A DNA stretch of 20,944 nt, taken from a virus. This document shows positions 3,523 through 14,632 of the stretch, one piece after another. The translations under genes were made by a program, and so were the position numbers. Positions within the stretch are counted from its first letter, which is position 1. Each line of letters opens with the position of its first letter. The notes below the pieces were generated by a model that saw nothing but the letters and a program-made list of their open reading frames with translations, was not told the DNA's origin and made no database searches. The stretch lies in the IMG/VR virus record IMGVR_UViG_3300031578_000410, positions 1 through 20,944 of that record; one strand, 5' to 3'.

Positions 3523-4305
3523 ATGAATTCATTATTAGAAAATATACAAGTTGACGCTGCAATAGTGTCAAACACTACATCAAGCGCGATATATAGTCAG
3601 TCATTTTCTATGCGAGGGTATCACAGAGCAGCCGCAGTTATTCAAGTTGGCACATTGCCAGCCACTGGCGTCGCGCAAGTTCAAATGACTATCATGGGCG
3701 GCGACGCCACAACAGCGCCTTCGGCGATGTCAAGCATTGCCGGCGCTTATGTTAATATCGGCACATCGAGCACTAGCGGATTAGTTAATAATGCTCATAA
3801 AATCAGAATTAATTGCATGGGATCAGCGGCGGCTACTGTAGCGGCTGGGCTCACGCTAAATTTTGGAACATCGACATTCCTCACTAGCGCAACAGCCGAT
3901 TCGACAGCAGGGCACTTTTTAACCGGACTTGCTTCGGTTGTGGCAAAGTCGTTAACTACATTGATACAAACTTGGTATCCGCAATATAATACTACATATA
4001 GCGCAACTGGAGCCTCAACTATCAGCGTAGATGTTGAACTTAATAATCTTGTGCCGGAAACCACAGGAATATACGCAAAAACTACAGCACAATCGACTAT
4101 CAGCGGGCTGAATGTGCAATCTCTAAAAACTCAAGGCATAGTGTCTATGAGCGCGGGAAAGCTTGTTGCGACTGCATCAAGTTTTACAAATTTTGCGATT
4201 AGGGTTGTGTCGACTGATTCAAGCGCTATTGCGATGGCTGTAAATGTTTTTAGAGATCCAGTCTATGCTCCAAAAACTATATCGGCAGGACATACAATAG
4301 TATAA
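3523..4305 (+). CDS. Beta-rich hypothetical protein after the capsid gene (candidate capsid decoration protein)
   Basis: I do not recognise a named family. The 260 residues are rich in Ala, Thr and Ser with few charges. Alternating hydrophobic stretches such as AAAVIQVGTL, VQMTIMGG and FAIRVVSTDSS suggest beta-sandwich folding. There is no signal peptide or membrane segment, so it is probably cytosolic and virion-bound. A good RBS (AAAAAGGGAG) lies about 13 bases before ATG 3523. The position directly after the capsid gene suits a decoration or head-fibre protein, which is inferred from order and composition only. Its codons are richer in G and C (GCG, GGC) than those of the portal gene. It is followed by a hairpin-bearing gap of about 100 bases. 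Confidence 0.6.
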   Translation: MNSLLENIQVDAAIVSNTTSSAIYSQSFSMRGYHRAAAVIQVGTLPATGVAQVQMTIMGGDATTAPSAMSSIAGAYVNIGTSSTSGLVNNAHKIRINCMGSAAATVAAGLTLNFGTSTFLTSATADSTAGHFLTGLASVVAKSLTTLIQTWYPQYNTTYSATGASTISVDVELNNLVPETTGIYAKTTAQSTISGLNVQSLKTQGIVSMSAGKLVATASSFTNFAIRVVSTDSSAIAMAVNVFRDPVYAPKTISAGHTIV

Positions 4306-4317
4306 TTGTTTTACCCC

Positions 4318-4357
4318 TGGGGGCACGTTTTTTTTGATTTTTTCATTCGTGCCCTCA
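4318..4357 (+). other. Stem-loop between head genes (10-bp stem, T-rich loop)
   Basis: TGGGGGCACG (4318-4327) pairs with CGTGCCCTCA (4348-4357), with one G-U pair, around a 20-base loop that is mostly T. It lies in the 101-base gap between the genes at 3523 and 4407. The T-run sits in the loop and not after the stem, so it is not a classical intrinsic terminator. It might be an RNA processing or partial-termination element that lowers expression downstream of the capsid gene. Confidence 0.4.
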
Positions 4358-4406
4358 CTCCCATTTTATCCAAAATATATATAAAAAATAGAAAGGCAAA
4401 AATAGT

Positions 4407-5168
4407 ATGGAAAATAATAATAAAAAAATATCGACAGCAATCAAAGCGAATAAAGACAAAGTATGCATCATGGGGTGCTCCGATTCAAAATCATTGGCTC
4501 CATTAAAAGATCCGAATTTTGAATTTTGGGGGGTTAATAATTTATTTTTATCTCTACCGAACGTCCCTTGGACACGATGGTTTGAAATACACGAAATAAC
4601 TTTTGACGGCATGAATTTTTTGAGGCGTGGAAAGCCAGTGTTCAGAGGATTGTCTGTAAATAAATATCTCGAACAAATTTCGCAAATACAATGTCCGGTA
4701 TATATGCAACAGAAATGGCCTTCAATCCAGAACAGCATTGTCTATCCAGTGCAAAAAGTCATAAAACAATTTGGCCGATATTTTACTAATACCATTTCTT
4801 GGGAAATAGCTTTAGCGTTATTTGAAGGATTTAAAGAAATATATATATATGGAGTTGATATGGCGGTGGGTAGTGAATATGCTCACCAACGACCATCTTG
4901 CGAATATTTTATTGGGATTGCTAGGGGCATGGGAGTTAATGTTGTCTTGCCAGATGAAGCGGATTTATTAAAAACTAGATTCCTTTATGGCTTTGAACAA
5001 CAAAAAGAAACAGCTTTTACGAAAAAAATTAAGCACGCAATTCTTTCTATGCAGCAAAGAAGACAACAAGCAGAGGTTCAACGAACTCATTTCGGAAAGC
5101 AAGTTGAACAATATATCGGCGGCGAAGTTGGACTAAATGAAATGTTAAAAATTTGGGAGGGGTGCTAA
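4407..5168 (+). CDS. Rossmann-like conserved phage protein (DUF115/MptE-like fold suspected)
   Basis: This belongs to a recurrent phage family of unknown role whose signature blocks are all present: VCIMGCSDS (19-27), WGVNN (41-45), RWFEIHE (57-63), YFTNTISW (125-132), a long block from IYGVDMAVGSEYAHQRP (147-163) through SCEYFIG (164-170), and LYGFE (193-197). The hydrophobic strand plus Gly at the N terminus and the IYIYGVDM strand-turn in the middle suggest a nucleotide-type Rossmann fold, like the DUF115 proteins tied to glycan transfer. That link rests on pattern memory. A charged coiled-coil tail follows from about 198. It is a soluble protein encoded among head genes, and its stop is one base before the next start. 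A role in modifying virion glycans or binding nucleotides is possible but unproven. Confidence 0.7.
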   Translation: MENNNKKISTAIKANKDKVCIMGCSDSKSLAPLKDPNFEFWGVNNLFLSLPNVPWTRWFEIHEITFDGMNFLRRGKPVFRGLSVNKYLEQISQIQCPVYMQQKWPSIQNSIVYPVQKVIKQFGRYFTNTISWEIALALFEGFKEIYIYGVDMAVGSEYAHQRPSCEYFIGIARGMGVNVVLPDEADLLKTRFLYGFEQQKETAFTKKIKHAILSMQQRRQQAEVQRTHFGKQVEQYIGGEVGLNEMLKIWEGC

Positions 5169-5169
5169 A

Positions 5170-5349
5170 ATGGTAAAAGGCAAATGGCGGGTTGTAGCGC
5201 CTTGCGTCAATCAAGATTGTGGAGATAGACTTGATACTGACGATATCGTCTATGAACTTTCCGAGGGGGAGCTTGGACGTCTTCTTGCATTTCAGAATAT
5301 AGAGGATATAAGTAAAAAAAATGACAAAAAAAGAAATAAAACAAATTGA
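5170..5349 (+). CDS. Small hypothetical protein (59 aa) with a Cys pair
   Basis: I do not recognise this gene. It encodes 59 residues starting MVKGKWRVVAPCVNQDCGDR; the C12-x4-C17 pair could bind metal, although no second pair is present. It starts one base after the stop of the Rossmann-like gene, with GGGAGGGG just upstream inside that gene, so translation is probably coupled. The first 47 or so codons have balanced base composition. The last dozen become almost pure A/T and encode a Lys/Asn-rich tail where the next small gene overlaps. The tail may be a fusion to degenerated sequence. No function can be assigned. Confidence 0.6.
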   Translation: MVKGKWRVVAPCVNQDCGDRLDTDDIVYELSEGELGRLLAFQNIEDISKKNDKKRNKTN

Positions 5350-5470
5350 AAAAATACATTTAAATAATTTATCTAAACAAGGATTAAATAAAATAGAAAT
5401 AAATAATTTAAAAAAAAAATTAAATAATTTTGAAACAGCTACACAAAAAAAACCTTTTGAAAAAAGATAA
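5321..5470 (+). CDS. Tiny Lys/Asn-rich hypothetical protein (49 aa)
   Basis: The 49-residue frame starts MTKKEIKQIEKIHLNNLSKQ. It is mostly Lys, Asn, Ile and Leu and could form one amphipathic helix. It overlaps the previous gene by 29 bases in another frame and has GAGGA (5302-5306), with a rather long 14-base spacing to ATG. The stop lies 14 bases before the next start. The region is far richer in A/T than its neighbours, so an open frame could be compositional chance. Its role is unknown. I list it because it fills an otherwise unexplained gap in a dense operon. Confidence 0.4.
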   Translation: MTKKEIKQIEKIHLNNLSKQGLNKIEINNLKKKLNNFETATQKKPFEKR

Positions 5471-5484
5471 ATGGAATAAATATT

Positions 5485-5814
5485 ATGACTTTACAAATAG
5501 AAGTTGAAAAAGTTTCTGTAGTAGATGCCGGACTTGAGTTCGGCGGGAAATTATTAAATGTCACGATAAATTTAAAATGCTGGGAAGAGGGCGTTGACAC
5601 TGAAATTACGGATCCCGTTATCGACCAAAATTTTACTTCGCAGTACTCGGAAATACCAGGGCTTACTATCGTGCAGCGATTAACCATCACATATAACGAT
5701 ATTTTGGCAAAGATGCAAGAAACGATTGACAGATATAAGCGGGAACAAGCGTTGCTGGAAAACGTCTTGCTCGACTCAATTGTAACTAATCTGACAGCCG
5801 CATTGGTTGGGTAA
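5485..5814 (+). CDS. Conserved phage protein upstream of LamG gene (109 aa)
   Basis: It is a 109-residue acidic protein. The N-terminal half (MTLQIEVEKVSVV, then LNVTINLKCWEEG) looks like beta strands. The C-terminal half (about 70-105, DILAKMQETIDRYKREQALL) is a helix with a heptad pattern. I recall similar short proteins beside LamG and beta-sandwich genes in other phages, without a known function. The helix suggests oligomerisation, perhaps as part of a virion appendage. Its RBS is weak (ATGGAATAAATATT before ATG), and the next gene follows after 11 bases with GGGAG. Cytosolic or virion location is inferred from context only. Confidence 0.6.
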   Translation: MTLQIEVEKVSVVDAGLEFGGKLLNVTINLKCWEEGVDTEITDPVIDQNFTSQYSEIPGLTIVQRLTITYNDILAKMQETIDRYKREQALLENVLLDSIVTNLTAALVG

Positions 5815-5825
5815 GGGAGAGAAAA

Positions 5826-6419
5826 ATGGCTTTAACGATCGGGGCATCGGCGGTTACGGATTGGACTGCTGTGGCGCAAAATACAATAGCAGAATCAGGC
5901 ATTATAACGCTATCTTCTAATTACAGTACTATGCTGCATCTCCAAGCAGCATTAGACACGACAACAGCGCATACCGGCACAAAATTTGTGGTGCAGGTGT
6001 CGAGCAATGCCACAGGAGACGAAGACTGGCAATCATTTTTAGAGTTTGTGGCATTAATCGGCACCGCGGTAACTGACTTGATAGAAGATAACCCATTGGC
6101 GGCATCTTCAACAGCGATAGCGCTGACAGGGCACTTGCTGACGACAGAAGGGATATGGCTGCTAATTGAAGATGGAACATTGGCAAATAGCGAGCTTATT
6201 TTTTTGGCTTCACAAAGCACAAATGAAATAGTGGCTTTGGATGGCACCACCAATGCACATGCACAGAATACAGCTATTTTCAATATAGCTATTTCAAAAG
6301 TAATACAAATTCCGATAAACGCAGGGATGAGGGCAAGGATGATTGTAGATAATAGTTACGATGTTGATGGCTCAACCCTAAATTTTAAATTAAGAACGAC
6401 ACAAACAACTGCGATATAA
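5826..6419 (+). CDS. Beta-sandwich-like conserved phage structural protein (197 aa)
   Basis: This protein resembles, from memory, a recurrent phage family found next to LamG genes; no function is established. Visible traits are TLSSNYSTMLHLQAALDTTT (29-48), the block HTGTKFVVQVSS (49-60), DEDWQSF, and a C-terminal strand region ending RMIVDNSYDVDGSTLNFKLR. The pattern of Thr/Ala-rich strands, with no signal peptide and no membrane segment, suits a virion-surface beta-sandwich. AAGGGAG lies just before ATG 5826 and the stop is 2 bases from the LamG start. I infer a decoration or appendage subunit partnered with the LamG protein. Confidence 0.6.
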   Translation: MALTIGASAVTDWTAVAQNTIAESGIITLSSNYSTMLHLQAALDTTTAHTGTKFVVQVSSNATGDEDWQSFLEFVALIGTAVTDLIEDNPLAASSTAIALTGHLLTTEGIWLLIEDGTLANSELIFLASQSTNEIVALDGTTNAHAQNTAIFNIAISKVIQIPINAGMRARMIVDNSYDVDGSTLNFKLRTTQTTAI

Positions 6420-6421
6420 TT

Positions 6422-7513
6422 ATGAATCAAAAGCCGATATTGGGAAGTCAAATAAATTTTGCCCATCCTTTGGCGCAAGGGCTTGTTGGCTGTTGGATCA
6501 TGAACGAGGGATGCGGAAATAAAATATACGATTTAAGCGAAAATGGAAACACCGGGACATTGAACAACGCAAGCTGGACGCTCTACGAGAACGGCAGTGC
6601 ATTAGATTTTAATGATACTAATTCCAGCGTTGAGATTGAGGATAATGATAGTCTTGACGGTTATGCGGAGATGTCATGGTCATTTTGGGTTATTCCCAGA
6701 GATATCGCCGAGAATACGGCGGGATTTATCTCAAAATGGGATGCGGTAAATGGAAAAAGAAGCTGGGCAGTTAGGCAAGCCGAAGCCAACAACGAAATAC
6801 AGTTATTTATATCTGGCGATGGAACAATCCATGCTCATGTCGAAAGTTCAGGATTTAATCTTACAAACAATGTATTAACTCATATAGTCGTTGTTAAGAA
6901 AGGCACTGTAGGTTATTTCTATAAAGATGGTCAGTTCATTAGTAGTGCAGGCGGGTTATCCTCAATTATTTATGCAGGGCCTGAAAATGTTGCTATAGGA
7001 AGATGGAGTGTACTATGGGCAGCTTACTTTGATGGGCTTATAGACAATATTCAAATCTATAATCGAGCGTTAACGCCCGATGAGGCGCAACAATTGTATT
7101 ATGAGCCATATGCGATGTTTGAATGTCTGGATTTATTGTCTTTTTTGACCTCTGGCGAACAAGAACAACTTTTAGTATTGCAGAACAGTCTACATAGCCA
7201 TATCGCTGACAATGTAGATTTGATTCAAGAGCAATTACTTGCTGTACAGAACAGTTTGCACGAGCATATAGTTGATAATATAGATTTGATTCAAGAGCAA
7301 TTACTTGCATTGCAGAACAGTCTACATAGCCATATCGCTGACAATGTAGATTTGATTCAAGAGCAATTACTTGCTGTACAGAACAGTCTACATAGCCATA
7401 TCGCTGACAATTTAGTAATAGCTGTATTATTAGCTATTAACTTTCCTACTTGGAACGATGCAACACCTGTAAAAAATTTTAAAAATATAACTCCAAATCT
7501 AACAATCAATTAA
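6422..7513 (+). CDS. LamG/ConA-like lectin-domain protein with 22-residue repeat tail
   Basis: This is a putative carbohydrate-binding virion protein. Residues about 13-230 form a LamG (laminin G/concanavalin A-like) domain: HPLAQGLVGCWIMNEG (15-30), YDLSENGNTGTL, WSFWVIPRD, VGYFYKDGQFISS, and FDGLIDNIQIYNRALT (203-218), the usual closing strand. The segment EAQQLYYEPYAMF that often ends phage LamG proteins follows. Residues 248-331 are four 22-residue repeats of the QNSLHSHIADNVDLIQ type, and a short hydrophobic segment and tail close the protein. The repeats could form a rod or trimeric stalk. It starts 2 bases after the preceding stop and is flanked by other beta-rich genes in the head region, suggesting display on the capsid or neck. 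The sugar target is unknown. Confidence 0.8.
   Translation: MNQKPILGSQINFAHPLAQGLVGCWIMNEGCGNKIYDLSENGNTGTLNNASWTLYENGSALDFNDTNSSVEIEDNDSLDGYAEMSWSFWVIPRDIAENTAGFISKWDAVNGKRSWAVRQAEANNEIQLFISGDGTIHAHVESSGFNLTNNVLTHIVVVKKGTVGYFYKDGQFISSAGGLSSIIYAGPENVAIGRWSVLWAAYFDGLIDNIQIYNRALTPDEAQQLYYEPYAMFECLDLLSFLTSGEQEQLLVLQNSLHSHIADNVDLIQEQLLAVQNSLHEHIVDNIDLIQEQLLALQNSLHSHIADNVDLIQEQLLAVQNSLHSHIADNLVIAVLLAINFPTWNDATPVKNFKNITPNLTIN
7163..7414 (+). repeat. Four tandem 66-bp coding repeats in the LamG gene
   Basis: Units start at 7163, 7229, 7295 and 7361; the last is cut short after about 54 bases. Each encodes EQLLAVQNSLHSHIADNVDL-type residues. Units 1, 3 and 4 share an identical core across the NSLHSHIADN codons, while unit 2 has diverged (HEHIVDNI). 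The arrangement suggests recent unequal exchange or slippage changing stalk length. Confidence 0.9.
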
Positions 7514-7526
7514 AAAGGAGTAAATT

Positions 7527-7913
7527 ATGGCTAAATATCAAAATGATTTAATGCTCGACGCTGGATTAGCATGGCTTCAAGATAGCGTTATAAAAATGGG
7601 AATATATACAGCGCAGCCGGTTTCTCTTGCAGAGTGCACTGCTAGCACAGCTTTAGCTTTCAGCGGCGCATTAACCACAGGAAGCTTCGTTATCGCTGAT
7701 GATTCCACTAATGGCGGACGAAAACTTACAGTAGCCGCACAGGCAACGCTTGCTGTTGTAACAACAGGTGTTGCTTCGCATGTTGCGCTTTTTTCAAGTG
7801 TCGGAACCACTGGTCTTCATTATGTTGTTACTTGTACAACCCAGGCATTGCCGAATACTAGCGGAAAAGTAACAGTGCCAGCATTCAAGATTACATTGGA
7901 TGATGCGACATAA
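7527..7913 (+). CDS. Conserved phage structural protein (128 aa), beta-rich
   Basis: The opening MAKYQNDLMLDAGLAWLQDS, the QPVSLAECT segment, NGGRKLTVAAQ (about 62-72) and the closing TSGKVTVPAFKITLDDAT match a short phage protein family I recall from virion-gene clusters, usually beside LamG or tail-fibre genes. It has no proven function. The protein is Ala/Thr-rich, probably an all-beta fold after one N-terminal helix, without signal peptide or membrane segment. AAAAAGGAG lies 8 bases before ATG 7527. The next gene starts 3 bases after its stop. A role as a small decoration or adaptor subunit is inferred. Confidence 0.65.
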   Translation: MAKYQNDLMLDAGLAWLQDSVIKMGIYTAQPVSLAECTASTALAFSGALTTGSFVIADDSTNGGRKLTVAAQATLAVVTTGVASHVALFSSVGTTGLHYVVTCTTQALPNTSGKVTVPAFKITLDDAT

Positions 7914-7916
7914 AAA

Positions 7917-8243
7917 ATGATAAATGCATATTTAGGACATTCGAATACTGTTAATTTAATTCTTAAATCTAATTCTACTGCTGTAGATTTAAGCGCAGTC
8001 AATAAAATTACACTATCGTTTAAAGATGTTTTACTTGAAAGCACCAATAGCACTGAATCTATAACATGGAATCAGTCTGGATATGCCACTGGAGAAATTC
8101 GCATTCATTTTGGAAATCAAAGCACACTTGTCGCTGGAATTTATGAGGCTCCATTAATAATATATTCTCCGACAGATACAGCCGGCGTGTTTTGGGGAGA
8201 TGTTCCATTAAATCTTATAACAGATATGGAGGCGTCTTCATGA
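7917..8243 (+). CDS. Small Ig-like/BppU N-terminal-like protein (108 aa)
   Basis: The pattern VNLILKSNSTAVDLSAVNKITLSF (split across 12-35), then GEIRIHFGNQSTLVAGIYEAPLIIYSP, resembles the small beta-sandwich N-terminal domain of phage baseplate upper (BppU-like) and related head-fibre proteins, here as a free-standing protein. This is a fold-level impression. It starts 3 bases after the previous stop without an obvious strong RBS, so translation is probably coupled. Its stop overlaps the connector start (ATGA). It closes the accessory cassette between capsid and connector genes. Virion attachment or adaptor function is inferred from context. Confidence 0.55.
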   Translation: MINAYLGHSNTVNLILKSNSTAVDLSAVNKITLSFKDVLLESTNSTESITWNQSGYATGEIRIHFGNQSTLVAGIYEAPLIIYSPTDTAGVFWGDVPLNLITDMEASS

Positions 8244-9714: not shown

Positions 9715-10092
9715 ATGGCATCAATTGAGAGTGTAATATATACTGTGTTAGCAGCGGCAACTAGCATAACAAGCTATGTTGACTCTAGAATATATCCTCA
9801 GCACAGACCTCAAGCAGCGGGAAAACCATCTATAGTATATTTTAGAGTTGGCGGGCATAGAGAGATAACAATAGACGGCGGATATGTTAATCTTGAAAAT
9901 CCTAGAATTTCAATCGAGATATATTCATCGTCTATTGATGCTAGACGCGAAATAGGCGAAGCTGTGTTAACAACGATGGAAAATAGTAGTTCTATAAATG
10001 CAATAGCGGCTATGTCCCCTTTGGATTTTTATGATCCATACACAACTGAATATAAAAGAATTATAGATTTTTCAATTTGGAAGCATGAATAA
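9715..10092 (+). CDS. Tail terminator/completion protein, DUF3168-like
   Basis: This 125-aa protein probably caps the tail tube after the tape measure sets its length, then joins the tail to the filled head. Family traits are an N-terminal helix (IESVIYTVLAAATSITSYVDSRIYP), the PSIVYFRVGG strand, the ISIEIYSSSIDARREIGEAV strand-helix and the late YKRIIDFSIWKHE strand. The order gp6, head closure, gp10 and DUF3168-like, followed by the tail tube gene, is the standard siphovirus order and supports the call. There is no clear SD sequence, so coupling to the preceding gene is likely. Confidence 0.8.
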   Translation: MASIESVIYTVLAAATSITSYVDSRIYPQHRPQAAGKPSIVYFRVGGHREITIDGGYVNLENPRISIEIYSSSIDARREIGEAVLTTMENSSSINAIAAMSPLDFYDPYTTEYKRIIDFSIWKHE

Positions 10093-10166: not shown

Positions 10167-10583
10167 ATGGCAATGGAAACCCAAGGTTGTAAATTCTTTT
10201 GGAGCGCATCAACAGCGCAAAGCACAGCTCAAAAAGTTGGAGAAGTGACAGATTTTAGCGGTCCAGGCGGCGCGGCTGCTGTAATCGATATAACACATTT
10301 AGAAAGCACAGCTAAAGAAAAATTAATCGGCTTAAGAGACGAAGGGCAGCTTAGCCTAACTCTGAATTATAATGCCACTGACACAGGGCAGATTGCGCTT
10401 ATTGCAGATAGAGCGAGCAGATCAAAAAGAAAAGCATTGCTAAAATTCACTGATGATGCCACACATTGCGCTGTATTTGATGCATATTGTCAACAATTTT
10501 CTGTGGCTGGAGCAAAAGACGATAAGATAACTGCCAACACAGTGTTGGAAATAACTGGCGCCGTTAATTTTACTACGGCATAA
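10167..10583 (+). CDS. Major tail tube protein, copy 1 (138 aa)
   Basis: This should be a tail tube subunit polymerising into stacked rings. The core VGEVTDFSGPGGAAAVIDIT (24-43), then STAKEKLIGLRDEGQLSLTL (47-66), is a recognisable tail tube signature, followed by a variable loop (about 76-104) and AYCQQFSVAGAKDDKITAN (106-124). A well-placed AGGAG precedes ATG 10167. The next gene, 12 bases downstream, is a paralogue sharing both blocks almost identically at protein and DNA level. This copy is short for a tube protein and lacks the added N-terminal domain of copy 2. Either could be the main subunit; the stronger leader upstream favours this one. Confidence 0.85.
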   Translation: MAMETQGCKFFWSASTAQSTAQKVGEVTDFSGPGGAAAVIDITHLESTAKEKLIGLRDEGQLSLTLNYNATDTGQIALIADRASRSKRKALLKFTDDATHCAVFDAYCQQFSVAGAKDDKITANTVLEITGAVNFTTA

Positions 10584-10595
10584 AGGAGATAAAAC

Positions 10596-11255
10596 ATGGC
10601 TATTGAAACACAAGGAACACTGATTAGACGGGCTTCTACAGTGACAGTCAACTCCTCCGCTGCAACAGCAATCGATATACAGTCTACTAGTTTAGTATGC
10701 GTTGGAACTATAGATTTTACAGCATTAGGTTTTACAACTTCTATGCTAATACAATGCAATGCGAAAGACACTAATGTCTATGCAATAAAAAGTGTGGCAG
10801 CCACAGCAATCGGCATATATGGGACGTTTGAAACTACCGGCAGCACAGATATAATCGTAACTGGATATGCGATGGAAAATATTGGAGAAGTGACAGACTT
10901 TAGCGGTCCAGGCGGCGCGGCCGCTGTAATCGATATAACGCATCTTCAAAGCACGGCTAAAGAAAAATTGATCGGCTTAAGGGACGAAGGACAGCTTAGC
11001 CTAACTCTTAATTATAATGCCACTGACACAGGGCAGACTGGGCTTATTACAGATAGATCTGGAAGAGTGAAAAATATGTATGATATTATGTTTCACGATA
11101 TTTCAAAAAGTGATTCAGCTATGCCTAGTAGAGTTGATTTTTTTGCGTATTGTCAGCAATTTTCTGTGGCTGGGGCAAAAGACGATAAGATAACTGCCAA
11201 TGCAGCGCTAGAAATAACTGGCGCTGTCAACTGGTCTACTAAAGTAACAACATAA
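10596..11255 (+). CDS. Tail tube protein paralogue, copy 2 with extra N-terminal domain (219 aa)
   Basis: Both copies begin MA-x-ETQG and share the tube core (here residues 97-147, one residue different from copy 1 over about 51) and the AYCQQFSVAGAKDDKITAN block (164-182). Copy 2 adds about 80 residues (roughly 15-94). That segment contains FTALGFTTSMLIQCNAKDTN, then VYAIKSVAATAIGIYG, a beta pattern I recall in other phage structural proteins. It also has a different, longer middle loop (about 148-163). Synonymous base changes inside the shared blocks show the duplication is not brand new. The extra domain probably decorates the tail exterior or marks a specialised ring. AAAGGAG lies upstream of the start. 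Confidence 0.82.
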   Translation: MAIETQGTLIRRASTVTVNSSAATAIDIQSTSLVCVGTIDFTALGFTTSMLIQCNAKDTNVYAIKSVAATAIGIYGTFETTGSTDIIVTGYAMENIGEVTDFSGPGGAAAVIDITHLQSTAKEKLIGLRDEGQLSLTLNYNATDTGQTGLITDRSGRVKNMYDIMFHDISKSDSAMPSRVDFFAYCQQFSVAGAKDDKITANAALEITGAVNWSTKVTT

Positions 11256-11279: not shown

Positions 11280-11642
11280 ATGGAAAAAATAAAAGATGTG
11301 ACAGAAAATGATTTCTTTAATAAAAAAATTACAGAAGTAGTTGATATTCCAGAAATGAAAACAAAGATTAAAGTAAAAGTAATGTCTGGGTTTGAAAGAA
11401 GAATGTTTCAACAAAAAATGGCGAATGACACTAAAAATAAAGATGATGTTCCAGATCATATGTTTTCTACATTAATAGCGATGACTGCAATAACATATAA
11501 TACAGAAGAATTGATCTTTAATATCGAAAAAATTAAAGAAATAGATAATATTCCGATTACTATTCAAGAAAAAATATTTACTATTTCGGCAAATTTGAAT
11601 GGTTTAACCACAGCTTCTAGGGAAGAATATATAAAAAATTAG
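11280..11642 (+). CDS. Tail assembly chaperone, upstream frame (lambda gpG-like role)
   Basis: This is a 120-aa charged, mostly helical protein between the tail tube and tape measure genes, the fixed location of siphovirus tail assembly chaperones. It includes VDIPEMKTKIKVKVMSGFER and a helix-rich C-terminal half. AAGGTGGAG lies upstream of ATG 11280. Its last codons before the TAG are ATA AAA AAT, inside a slippery heptamer. Part of the ribosomes should slip -1 and continue into the next frame, giving a product of about 198 aa. In lambda the gpG and gpGT forms coat the tape measure and recruit tube subunits; this role is inferred from position, size and the frameshift layout. Confidence 0.8.
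   Translation: MEKIKDVTENDFFNKKITEVVDIPEMKTKIKVKVMSGFERRMFQQKMANDTKNKDDVPDHMFSTLIAMTAITYNTEELIFNIEKIKEIDNIPITIQEKIFTISANLNGLTTASREEYIKN
11619..11642 (+). promoter_or_regulatory. Programmed -1 ribosomal frameshift site
   Basis: The heptamer A AAA AAT (11633-11639) lies in the correct X XXY YYZ phase, followed at once by TAG (11640-11642). An SD-like AGGGAAG (11619-11625) sits 7 bases upstream, similar to the AGGGAG stimulator of the E. coli dnaX site. The -1 frame is open across the site, from just after a TAG at 11618 to the stop at 11875. I see no strong downstream hairpin. Confidence 0.75.
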
Positions 11643-11875
11643 AGGCAAATCCTTTTGAATTTTTTATTATGCAGCTTGCACAGGATTTGCATATGTCGAT
11701 AAACAGGCTGCTTCATGAGATGGATAGTCAGGATATTAGCAAACAAATAGCTTTTCATATTTATAAAGATAATAAAAAAGAAATAAATAAACAAGAAAAA
11801 AATCAGGTTAATTTAAAAAATAAATTTATGTCTATTATGGGTGGAAAATTGAAATCAAAAGGTAAAAATAAATAA
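11639..11875 (+). CDS. Tail assembly chaperone, -1 frameshift extension (lambda gpT-like)
   Basis: This is the second part of the chaperone, read after the -1 shift as a join of 11280..11639 with 11639..11875. It begins LEANPFEFFIMQLAQDLHMS and continues INRLLHEMDSQDISKQIAFH. That follows the gpT-type pattern of a Leu-rich helix ending in a short weak-start motif and an acidic-aromatic helix, then a Lys-rich tail. An internal ATG at 11669 could in principle start a separate 68-aa product, but no good SD lies before it and residues upstream of it look like coding sequence. The Lys-rich end may contact the acidic tape measure or its transcript. The stop is 3 bases before the tape measure start. 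Confidence 0.75.
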   Translation, partial: LEANPFEFFIMQLAQDLHMSINRLLHEMDSQDISKQIAFHIYKDNKKEINKQEKNQVNLKNKFMSIMGGKLKSKGKNK

Positions 11876-11878
11876 AAA

Positions 11879-14632
11879 ATGGCTCAAAAAGTAGGCGGAG
11901 TCTTAATCGATATTGCAACAAATGTTGCAAAAGTTAAAAAAGACTTCGAGCAAATATCTGGTCACATTAATAAATTTTCAAAAAATGCTAAAAAAATGCT
12001 TCTAGGGATCGGCGTGTCCCTCGCCGCTGCATTTAGCGTTAGAGCGCTTAAAAGATTTGTGATTGATGGAACCGCAGCTATCGATTCTTTGCAAGATATG
12101 GCTCAAAAGTCAGCGATATCAACACGCACATTTCAGGGATTGTCACAAGCCGCAAAATATGCAGGCATTGATATGAGTGGCGTAGCTACAGGGCTTAAGC
12201 GATTAAACACAAACATACTTGACGCAAATTATGGGTTAAAAGAATCTACCAGATTGTTTGACGATATGGGGATATCGTACAAAACAGCTACTGGAGAAAT
12301 GAGAAAGACTGAAGATGTATTTTTTGATATTGTAGACAAAATATCAAAAATGGGTAACAAGTCAAAAGCGGCTGCGCTTTTAGTGAAATTGTTAGGTCGA
12401 TCAGGATCGGATTTAATTCCGGTTATGAAAAATGGATCAGAAGGCATAAAAAAAGTAATAGATAGATTAGAGCGATTGGGCGGAATTATCACTGATGATA
12501 CGTTCAGCAAGATGGATAGAGTTAATCAGAATTTTAAAGATATGGGGGTGGCAATTGGATCCATCAAACTGCAAGTATTAGCTGGATTGTCCGATGCTCT
12601 ATTGACTATTACAACTGCTATGGTAGACAGTACAACAGCTTTAAGCGAATGGGAACAAGCGGGGAAAACCGCTGGGGCTGTTATGCTAAATCTTACAAAA
12701 AATTATATTGCGGCATCTGGAGCAATTAGAATTCTAAATGAAGGTTTACAATATTATACAGACTTTTTTAAAGGCAATCTTGCAAAAAATGCTGAACAAG
12801 AATATGCCATTTCTGTTCAAAATATCATCAATCATACAAACGAATTATTAGATAAATTAGATAAACCAATCGAATTAAACATAGAAACAAATATCGGGGG
12901 AGATTCTGGCAGCGGGATAGATGCAGCAGAAGCATTAGCGAAACAAGAAGCATATTTAAAAAAAATAATACAAGCGCAAAAAACAAAAGTTCAGTTGTTG
13001 GAAGAGGAACAAGAGTATGCATGGAGCATTGGAATGCAACTCAAAACAGATAGCGCGGAATATGCGGCTATTGCAAAAAGATTATCTATTATAAATGAAG
13101 AAATAAAAAACTTAAAAGTTCCCGCAGAAGCATTAGCGAAACAAGAAGCATATTTAGAAAAAATAATACAAGCGCAAAAAACAAAAGTTCAGTTGTTGGA
13201 AGAGGAACAAGGGTATGCATGGAGCATTGGAATGCAACTCAAAACAGATAGCGCGGAATATGCGGCTATTGCAAAAAGATTATCTATTATAAATGAAGAA
13301 ATAAAAAACTTAAAAGTTCCCGCTACAATTTGGGGCAATATTAAAAAAGGCATGGAAGATTATTATGATACAATTAAAGATAGAAGCTCTCAAATTCAAA
13401 ATGTTACAATAAAAGCGGCTAAAAGCATGGAAGATGCTTTTGTGGATTTTGCCATGGGAGCTAAAATAAGTTGGAAATCAATGGCTGATTCCATTATTGC
13501 AGATATTTTAAGAATTTATATAAGACAAAAATTAATAATGCCTTTGTTAAATAATCTTGGCATAGACAACGCTGGAAGCACATCTCTTGTTCCAATTGGT
13601 TTGTTGAGCGAAAATAGTGGCAGCTCTCAAAATAGTGGCAACTCTTTAGCGCGAAAAAGTTTAAAAAAAGGCGGCCTGGCTAAAGAAAATATTGATTTAT
13701 CCAATAATATGAAAAATATTGTATCTGAAAATACATTTTTCATGAGTAGCGAAGTTGAAGAATTTGTAAAAAATGCTGGCAATCAATATGATTTATTAGG
13801 TGTTAGAATGCGAAAAAATTTATATAGTTCTGTTGGCGGTGTTGGCGGTGTTGGCGGTGTTGGCGGCGTTGGCGGCGTTGGCGGCGTTGGCGGCGTTGGC
13901 GGTGTTGGCGGTGGAAGTGTTGGCGGTACTGTTGGCGGCGCTGACGCTGTTGGCGGTGGAAGTGTTGGCGGTACTGTTGGCAGTGTTGGAAGTGGCAGTG
14001 TTGGCGGAGCTGTTATAAATACTGAAGATATGGATTTATGGGAAAAATGGGGAATGAATGATATGGATTTATGGGAAAAATGGGGTTTCAATGATATGGG
14101 GAGGGAAGTTAATCGATGGATGAACGATTTTAATAAAATAACTGGCGACTCATTAAAAATAGTAGATTTAGTAAATACTAATATTGCTCAAAATACTGGT
14201 GATATTTTTACTGATATTTATCATGGCGACATTAAAGGATTAGTAAAAGATGGCCTTGATTCAGTTGGAGAAGCTGCCACAATAGTAGCGAAAGAGACAG
14301 AAAGTGTAATTACTGGAGCTGGGAAAGAAATTACAAATGCAGCTTCAAAAATTGGCATAAAAAAACCCAATTGGTGGCATCACGGAGGCATGGTTGGAGG
14401 ATATCCAAATATTGCGGAAATACCAAGATTACATAATGGCCTAAAATCTGACGAAGAATTTGCTGTTCTCCAACGCGGTGAACGTGTTTTGAGCAAAAGA
14501 GAAGTTCAAGAAGGTGGCAACATGACAATCAATATTCCCATATCCATTGGAGAACAATTTGCAGGCATAGAAAATTTGCTTAAAAAATCTATAGAAAAAA
14601 CAGTTATTGAAGTAATGAGGCAATATACATAA
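11879..14632 (+). CDS. Tape measure protein (917 aa)
   Basis: This protein spans the tail lumen during assembly and sets tail length; at infection it may form part of the channel. It has a long helical N-terminal half, a hydrophobic segment MLLGIGVSLAAAFSV (about 40-54), the typical AALLVKLLGRSGSDLIPVM block, and a C-terminal FAVLQRGERVLSKREVQ motif common to tape measure proteins. Residues 350-415 and 416-481 are a tandem duplication. Residues 652-678 are nine Val-Gly-Gly units inside a Gly/Val/Ser-rich region reaching about 712, followed by two DMDLWEKWG units (717-738). The start ATG 11879 is 3 bases after the chaperone stop with only a weak AGGT, so coupling is likely. The location after the frameshifted chaperone confirms the call. 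Confidence 0.93.
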   Translation: MAQKVGGVLIDIATNVAKVKKDFEQISGHINKFSKNAKKMLLGIGVSLAAAFSVRALKRFVIDGTAAIDSLQDMAQKSAISTRTFQGLSQAAKYAGIDMSGVATGLKRLNTNILDANYGLKESTRLFDDMGISYKTATGEMRKTEDVFFDIVDKISKMGNKSKAAALLVKLLGRSGSDLIPVMKNGSEGIKKVIDRLERLGGIITDDTFSKMDRVNQNFKDMGVAIGSIKLQVLAGLSDALLTITTAMVDSTTALSEWEQAGKTAGAVMLNLTKNYIAASGAIRILNEGLQYYTDFFKGNLAKNAEQEYAISVQNIINHTNELLDKLDKPIELNIETNIGGDSGSGIDAAEALAKQEAYLKKIIQAQKTKVQLLEEEQEYAWSIGMQLKTDSAEYAAIAKRLSIINEEIKNLKVPAEALAKQEAYLEKIIQAQKTKVQLLEEEQGYAWSIGMQLKTDSAEYAAIAKRLSIINEEIKNLKVPATIWGNIKKGMEDYYDTIKDRSSQIQNVTIKAAKSMEDAFVDFAMGAKISWKSMADSIIADILRIYIRQKLIMPLLNNLGIDNAGSTSLVPIGLLSENSGSSQNSGNSLARKSLKKGGLAKENIDLSNNMKNIVSENTFFMSSEVEEFVKNAGNQYDLLGVRMRKNLYSSVGGVGGVGGVGGVGGVGGVGGVGGVGGGSVGGTVGGADAVGGGSVGGTVGSVGSGSVGGAVINTEDMDLWEKWGMNDMDLWEKWGFNDMGREVNRWMNDFNKITGDSLKIVDLVNTNIAQNTGDIFTDIYHGDIKGLVKDGLDSVGEAATIVAKETESVITGAGKEITNAASKIGIKKPNWWHHGGMVGGYPNIAEIPRLHNGLKSDEEFAVLQRGERVLSKREVQEGGNMTINIPISIGEQFAGIENLLKKSIEKTVIEVMRQYT
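12926..13321 (+). repeat. Tandem 198-bp near-perfect duplication in the tape measure gene
   Basis: Units 12926-13123 and 13124-13321 have equal length (66 codons). By reading they differ at only two bases: 12959 A versus 13157 G (Lys to Glu) and 13014 A versus 13212 G (Glu to Gly). Both changes alter the protein. The frame is kept, so the tape measure gains 66 helical residues. Confidence 0.97.
13832..14014 (+). repeat. Val-Gly-Gly minisatellite in the tape measure gene
   Basis: Nine successive 9-bp units of GTTGGCGGT/C occupy 13832-13912. Degenerate continuations follow, including a GGAAGTGTTGGCGGTACTGT segment that occurs twice. The region encodes a flexible Gly/Val/Ser-rich linker. GC-rich codons contrast sharply with the surrounding AT-rich gene, so slippage is likely. 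Confidence 0.93.
14027..14092 (+). repeat. Two 33-bp tandem repeats in the tape measure gene
   Basis: Units 14027-14059 and 14060-14092 encode DMDLWEKWGMN and DMDLWEKWGFN. The first 26 bases of each are identical. Tryptophan-rich acidic repeats are unusual in this protein and lie directly after the Gly/Val linker. Confidence 0.95.

Follow-up and report, generated by a model that had tools for sequence, protein, structure and literature searches.

Adjacent plain and decorated tail tube genes with matched predicted docking surfaces in uncultivated siphophages

The question raised by this locus is why a virus should encode, side by side, two tail tube proteins that are almost identical in two blocks and differ elsewhere, and what keeps those blocks alike. 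The first gene (copy 1, 10167-10583, + strand) encodes a plain tube protein of 138 residues with a fold like that of lambda gpV, and matches PF16460 (E 9e-15) and PHROG 158 (E 1e-25). The second gene (copy 2, 10596-11255, + strand) encodes a decorated tube protein of 219 residues whose architecture resembles that of T1 gp41, and also matches PF16460 (E 2e-10). The scores against this Pfam family (Phage_TTP_11), 55.1 bits for copy 1 and 40.9 bits for copy 2, both exceed the gathering cut-off of 28.4 bits.

Genomic setting of the tube genes

The window analysed here is the entire IMG/VR record IMGVR_UViG_3300031578_000410, with a length of 20,944 bases. A second contig, IMGVR_UViG_3300031673_000178, is identical to it at 12,657 of the 12,657 bases compared and, being near-identical, was not counted as an independent sample. 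According to Pfam and PHROG the window holds a siphophage head and tail module, with portal, prohead protease, capsid, connector and tail terminator genes. The tail terminator or completion protein (9715-10092, + strand; PF11367, E 5e-9; PHROG 347) is followed by the two tube genes, a tail assembly chaperone with a -1 slippery site (11280-11875, + strand; PHROG 344, E 2e-6) and the tape measure protein (11879-14632, + strand; PF09718, E 1e-18). Both tube genes, lying between the terminator and the chaperone and tape measure genes, occupy the position of the tail tube in lambda-like phages.

The chaperone is encoded as an open -1 fusion. Its G-like ORF (11280-11642, + strand) contains the slippery sequence A_AAA_AAT (11633-11639) just upstream of the stop, and a -1 shift leads into the T-like frame, which ends at 11875, giving the usual G/GT layout. 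The tape measure gene contains an in-frame tandem duplication of 198 bp (12926-13323), which must be very recent because its copies are 99% identical; by tape-measure logic it would add roughly two rings to the tail. The interval between capsid and connector genes (3523-8243, about 4.7 kb) consists mostly of unassigned genes. Here, amid the head and connector genes, an ORF (6422-7513) encodes a laminin-G-like domain followed by about 3.6 copies of a 66-bp repeat (7177-7415), each of which encodes a 22-residue 'QNSLHSHIADNVDLIQEQLLAV' unit; this is an unusual location for a laminin-G-like protein of the surface type. An HNH endonuclease gene (PF01844, 20516-20896) lies at the end of the record, and no RNA families or tRNAs were found in the 20,944 bases of the window.

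Sequence relationship of the two copies

The two proteins are 73% identical over 122 residues, a similarity far beyond chance (E 1e-51), and at the DNA level the copies share two direct repeats, one of 198 nt (88% identity) and one of 118 nt (80% identity). The first-pass annotation had described two near-identical protein blocks in adjacent reading frames, with differences that are mostly synonymous, and both statements hold. Residues 25-75 of copy 1 and 97-147 of copy 2 differ by one amino acid in 51, with 11 of 153 nucleotides changed and nine codons altered silently. Residues 106-124 of copy 1 and 184-202 of copy 2 are identical over all 19 positions, with four silent nucleotide changes, so that 13 silently changed codons over both blocks stand against a single amino acid change. 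The extent given for block 1 needs qualification: near-identity does apply to residues 25-75, but the 88% tract continues to about residue 81-87. As delimited by the direct repeats and by sliding identity, shared block 1 spans 10231-10428 in copy 1 and 10876-11073 in copy 2, and shared block 2 spans 10476-10583 in copy 1 and 11139-11246 in copy 2 (all + strand).

Two further statements had to be given up. The stretch between the blocks, described as wholly different, aligns at 37% identity and has the same predicted helix and strand in both copies. The roughly 80 residues thought to be added at the N-terminus of copy 2 are instead an internal insert, the starts of the two proteins being in correspondence (MAMETQG and MAIETQG). 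Fusion of an unrelated domain to the N-terminus of copy 2 was ruled out, as the alignment with plain copies shows an insertion. Frameshifting or readthrough from one gene into the other was also rejected: the reading frame of copy 1 is closed by TAA, and 12 nt further on copy 2 opens with its own ATG and has an AGGAG (Shine-Dalgarno-like) site.

Predicted structures and the inserted domain

AlphaFold2 models, and their comparison with solved tubes by Foldseek, give both copies a β-sandwich with one helix and a long β2-β3 loop. Copy 1 is predicted as the bare fold (pLDDT 75), with the YDC107 tail core and lambda gpV as its top matches (E 3e-7 to 1e-6). The model of copy 2, built with a 32-sequence alignment, also adopts the tube fold (pLDDT 83.5). 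It begins with a strand (residues 9-18) that leads into the inserted domain, continues through two strands (88-95 and 99-106) to an unstructured loop (107-132), and is completed by a strand (133-139), a helix (145-156), another strand (159-165) and the last hairpin (179-214). The top match of copy 2 is the T1 tail tube (9l0f), which aligns over the whole length (E 4e-6) at a sequence identity of 12%; ubiquitin E1 chains are matched as well.

The extra domain of copy 2 comprises about 70 residues and is placed inside the first β-hairpin both by the alignment with plain copies and by the model. It extends approximately from residue 19 to residue 87 (10650-10856, + strand, limits approximate; model strands 24-86). 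A Pfam search with the insert gave nothing significant, and its Foldseek likeness is to T1 and ubiquitin E1 only. The comparable insert of one relative, L138, has a weak match to PF16190 (E1_FCCH, E 0.04).

Solved structures of siphophage tubes show a barrel of 24 strands made up of the inner strands, and contact between rings is mostly provided by the long loop, which is usually disordered in monomers (PMC9022992). In JBD30 this loop is flanked by loops of the adjacent ring, which belong to the C-terminal portion of the fold (PMC11445458). When the shared blocks are mapped onto known tube structures they fall, as had been anticipated, at the predicted tube interface, in the inter-ring loop, the lumen strands and the strands of the last hairpin. 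Block 1 would correspond to the inter-ring loop (residues 107-132 of copy 2, predicted to be unstructured in the monomer) with its two strands. Block 2 would correspond to the last hairpin (strands 100-117 and 120-137 in copy 1, 179-195 and 198-214 in copy 2), at ring and lumen contacts.

Distribution of the tandem pair

Relatives were sought among contigs of uncultivated viruses, and each locus retrieved was then scanned with a profile. Tandem pairs were found in uncultivated viruses at 34 loci, representing 29 genomes once close duplicates had been removed. The second gene carries an insert on its N-terminal side in 22 of the 34 pairs and a C-terminal domain in place of the insert in two (L112 and L134); both genes are plain in ten. 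In all 24 pairs of a plain and an extended gene the plain gene comes first, the extended copy always being second. The C-terminal extensions (L112:2433-3122 and L134:4218-4898) comprise about 90-100 residues, look Ig-like and give weak PKD or Big_5 matches. One locus has a third tube gene (L004:6692-8314, 541 residues), in which a propeller-like region of about 320 residues precedes an insert-bearing tube protein. This region matches DUF6242, Kelch and KIB1-4 weakly, and no relatives of it were found in viral contigs besides L004.

Single-gene relatives were also found, some with the plain gene only and some with the decorated gene only (L005/L036, L037 and L138). As some lineages retain one tube gene, plain or decorated, neither partner is obligatory. 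In the bacterial genome set a prophage search gave three loci only, with one tube gene found in each. Among cultured or named phages of the window's tube family, no tandem pair was seen in three of the four nearest annotated relatives, each with one annotated major tail gene. The fourth, the archaeal (Methanosarcinales) virus vir515 (BK063672.1), has a diverged tandem pair: its plain tube gene is followed directly by a 332-residue paralogue, 33% identical, in which the tube core is C-terminal. The vir515 pair is much more diverged than that of the window and has about 200 extra residues in its second gene. This extended paralogue (BK063672.1:16479-17477; L162:2945-3943), which adjoins the major tail protein, is annotated as hypothetical. 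The tandem pair of tube genes is old and widespread.

Comparison with known tube systems

The first-pass annotation had presented plain and extended subunits as hard-coded in two genes. The two genes are confirmed, but the arrangement is not unprecedented, as hard-coded paralogues occur in actinophages and mixed tubes are made by frameshift in SPP1, with a plain to decorated ratio of 3:1 (PMC6316719), and in lactococcal 936 phages, where the decorated subunits of PhiC0139 form a spiral (PMC4759559). SPP1 (gp17.1 and gp17.1*) and the 936 phages (MTP and MTP-TpeX) combine plain and decorated subunits in one tube, as is proposed here for the window. They do so, however, from one gene and a +1 frameshift, so that the cores are identical by construction, whereas the window has two genes, an insert near the N-terminus, and a decorated form that is not a programmed frameshift product of the plain gene.

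Copy 2 resembles T1 gp41 (PDB 9l0f; PMC11945409) in having a short first strand, an inserted domain, a β-sandwich and a long hairpin loop. The extra domain lies in the first hairpin in both, at about residues 19-87 in copy 2 and 16-94 in T1, where it is Ig-like and faces outward and the hairpin loop spans 114-134 (PMC11945409). The T1 tube is built from this one protein, whereas the window pairs the T1-like copy 2 with a plain paralogue. Lambda gpV (PDB 7t2e, 8k36) shares the fold of copy 1 (Pfam families PF16460/PF16461) but, unlike the window pair, comes from a single tube gene and carries an Ig-like domain at its C-terminus.

Actinophages, the most familiar case of two hard-coded tube genes, resemble the window in that each genome hard-codes paralogous tube genes, some with extra C-terminal parts (PMC11080557). 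Two or three 'major tail proteins' are found, for example, in Microbacterium phages Camille and Damascus, in Gordonia cluster DJ, and in Arthrobacter, Streptomyces and Rhodococcus (ReqiPoco6) phages. One Camille tube gene matches 480 places in 243 phage records, with two or three copies in most of the records listed. These proteins belong to PHROG 2645, whereas the window copies match PHROG families 158, 584 and 41 instead, and a core profile of the window's family gave no significant detection of the Camille tube copies. The first two actinophage copies are split by another gene in the records examined, whereas those of the window are adjacent.

Matched evolution of the shared blocks

Had the two copies simply diverged since an old duplication, copy 1 would be no closer to its own copy 2 than to the copy 2 of another genome. 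The blocks are much closer than this. Over the 29 genomes their identity is 73% within a genome against 53% between copy 1 and the copy 2 of other genomes, and the same copy compared across genomes reaches only 54-55%; none of 20,000 permutations attained the observed within-genome value. The effect is small in the middle segment, with 33% identity within genomes and 25-30% across them.

Among the seven genomes that make up the window's clade, the difference between paralogue and orthologue identity is +0.11 for block 1, +0.21 for block 2 and -0.20 for the middle segment, with bootstrap intervals that exclude zero, and for the middle segment it is positive in 0 of 21 genome pairs. Along the protein the change between regions is sharp: orthology is tracked up to residue ~25 and again over residues ~79-105, and the genome over residues ~25-75 and ~103-135; the inserted domain likewise tracks orthology across genomes. 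In the tree of the blocks a single clade of all copy-1 rows is rejected (p-AU 2.7e-5), and the two window copies are sisters.

The matching is partial and depends on lineage, as the own pair is closer than the best orthologue elsewhere in only nine of the 29 genomes (both blocks together) and the reverse holds in 20. It is weaker in the most divergent genomes, for example L021, L025 and L062. Nor does it follow generally from the possession of two tube genes, because actinophage pairs barely show it: in 13 phages, a control made slightly noisy by Argan and BronxBay, whose second gene is a large minor tail protein, identity was 0.41 within genomes and 0.40 across them, with no sliding window above +0.07.

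Gene conversion and purifying selection

It had been suggested from the outset that selection or gene conversion holds the blocks while the rest diverges, and signals of both were seen. Silent divergence was compared with the saturation value expected from the codon usage of each genome. For block 1 of the window it is 0.28 against an expected 0.81 (z -5.6), and block 2 is also below saturation (z -3.0). The silent sites of block 1 are similarly far below saturation in L008, L043, L062 and L114, with tracts that differ, and those of L015 mostly in block 2. These deficits point to segmental gene conversion in the window and in all five of these relatives.

Most pairs have reached saturation at silent sites. 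In L010 this is the case (pS 0.99) although the block 1 protein is 100% identical, and the saturated pairs L010, L055, L112 and L118 have block 1 proteins that are 89-100% identical, which argues that purifying selection also acts on the blocks. In the window pN is 0.03, and the pN/pS of about 0.1 in its blocks indicates that both genes are under constraint. Judged from silent sites, recent segmental gene conversion explains the matching in some genomes, including the window, with selection acting too. Nothing relevant on gene conversion affecting tube genes was found in a search of the literature.

A probable shared tube and alternative explanations

The explanation that we regard as probable is that bare and decorated subunits are built into the same siphophage tube, their ring-contact surfaces being matched by conversion and purifying selection. 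The two genes would supply lambda gpV-like and T1 gp41-like subunits respectively, and we infer that both proteins co-assemble. The surfaces held in common would be those that need mutual fit, namely the lumen strands, the last hairpin and the long loop that extends into the next ring, where it probably docks against the last hairpin. As both proteins would share one tube, surfaces that meet must remain compatible and outward ones are free. Repeated short conversion tracts between the tandem copies, together with purifying selection, would keep the former matched, and the helix, the outer strand and the inserted domain, predicted to face outward, would evolve separately. By analogy with relatives, the insert is probably an exposed decoration that may bind cells or glycans. 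The subunit ratio would follow from expression of the two genes and not from a frameshift. There is perhaps an even chance that the mixed tube is hard-wired in a wider sense, conversion and selection keeping the docking surfaces compatible as the displayed domains (insert, C-terminal or propeller-like) are exchanged.

It is unlikely, though worth weighing, that copy 2 is instead confined to one special ring, or to a short segment, adjoining the tip or located at the neck, where it would serve as initiator or terminal piece and would not be part of a mixed wall. Contractile injection systems use separate tube proteins as initiator or terminal rings. Ring-contact surfaces would have to match there too, so that the block matching fits this arrangement, as does the constant second place of the extended copy. 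Decorated subunits alone, however, apparently build the whole tail in L005/L036, L037 and L138, and the variety of added domains resembles surface decoration more than position-specific adaptors.

A neutral origin seems less probable again. Conversion between tandem repeats can occur without co-assembly, and the stretches most alike recombine most easily; the matching might then be a by-product of recombination between proteins that are alternatives and not partners, a process that predicts the silent-site deficits of the window, L008, L015, L043, L062 and L114. Such a process does not sit well with the low pN/pS of the window blocks, with the near-identical block 1 proteins of the saturated pairs, or with the persistence of the pair and its gene order in 29 genomes. 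Recent independent duplication in each lineage, which would yield high within-genome identity by recent common descent and could apply to a few plain-plus-plain pairs, deserves very little credence, as most pairs have saturated silent sites and the first 20 residues, the inserted domain and the middle segment track orthology, the last contradicting it outright in the window's clade.

Implications

Two things are new here: the pairing, as separate genes, of plain and decorated subunits in the lambda-like tube family, and the way in which the predicted docking surfaces of the pair evolve in step. The bacterial defence system DSR2 recognises the tail tube (PMC10981675), and it may be speculated that a second subunit with an altered surface could matter for tube-sensing defence systems. 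If bare and decorated subunits do share one tube, these viruses would be a natural source of tube subunits in pairs, one bare and one displaying, and the matched blocks would constitute a map, drawn from natural variation, of the tube surfaces that must stay compatible for two different subunits to stack, which is usually obtained only by mutagenesis.
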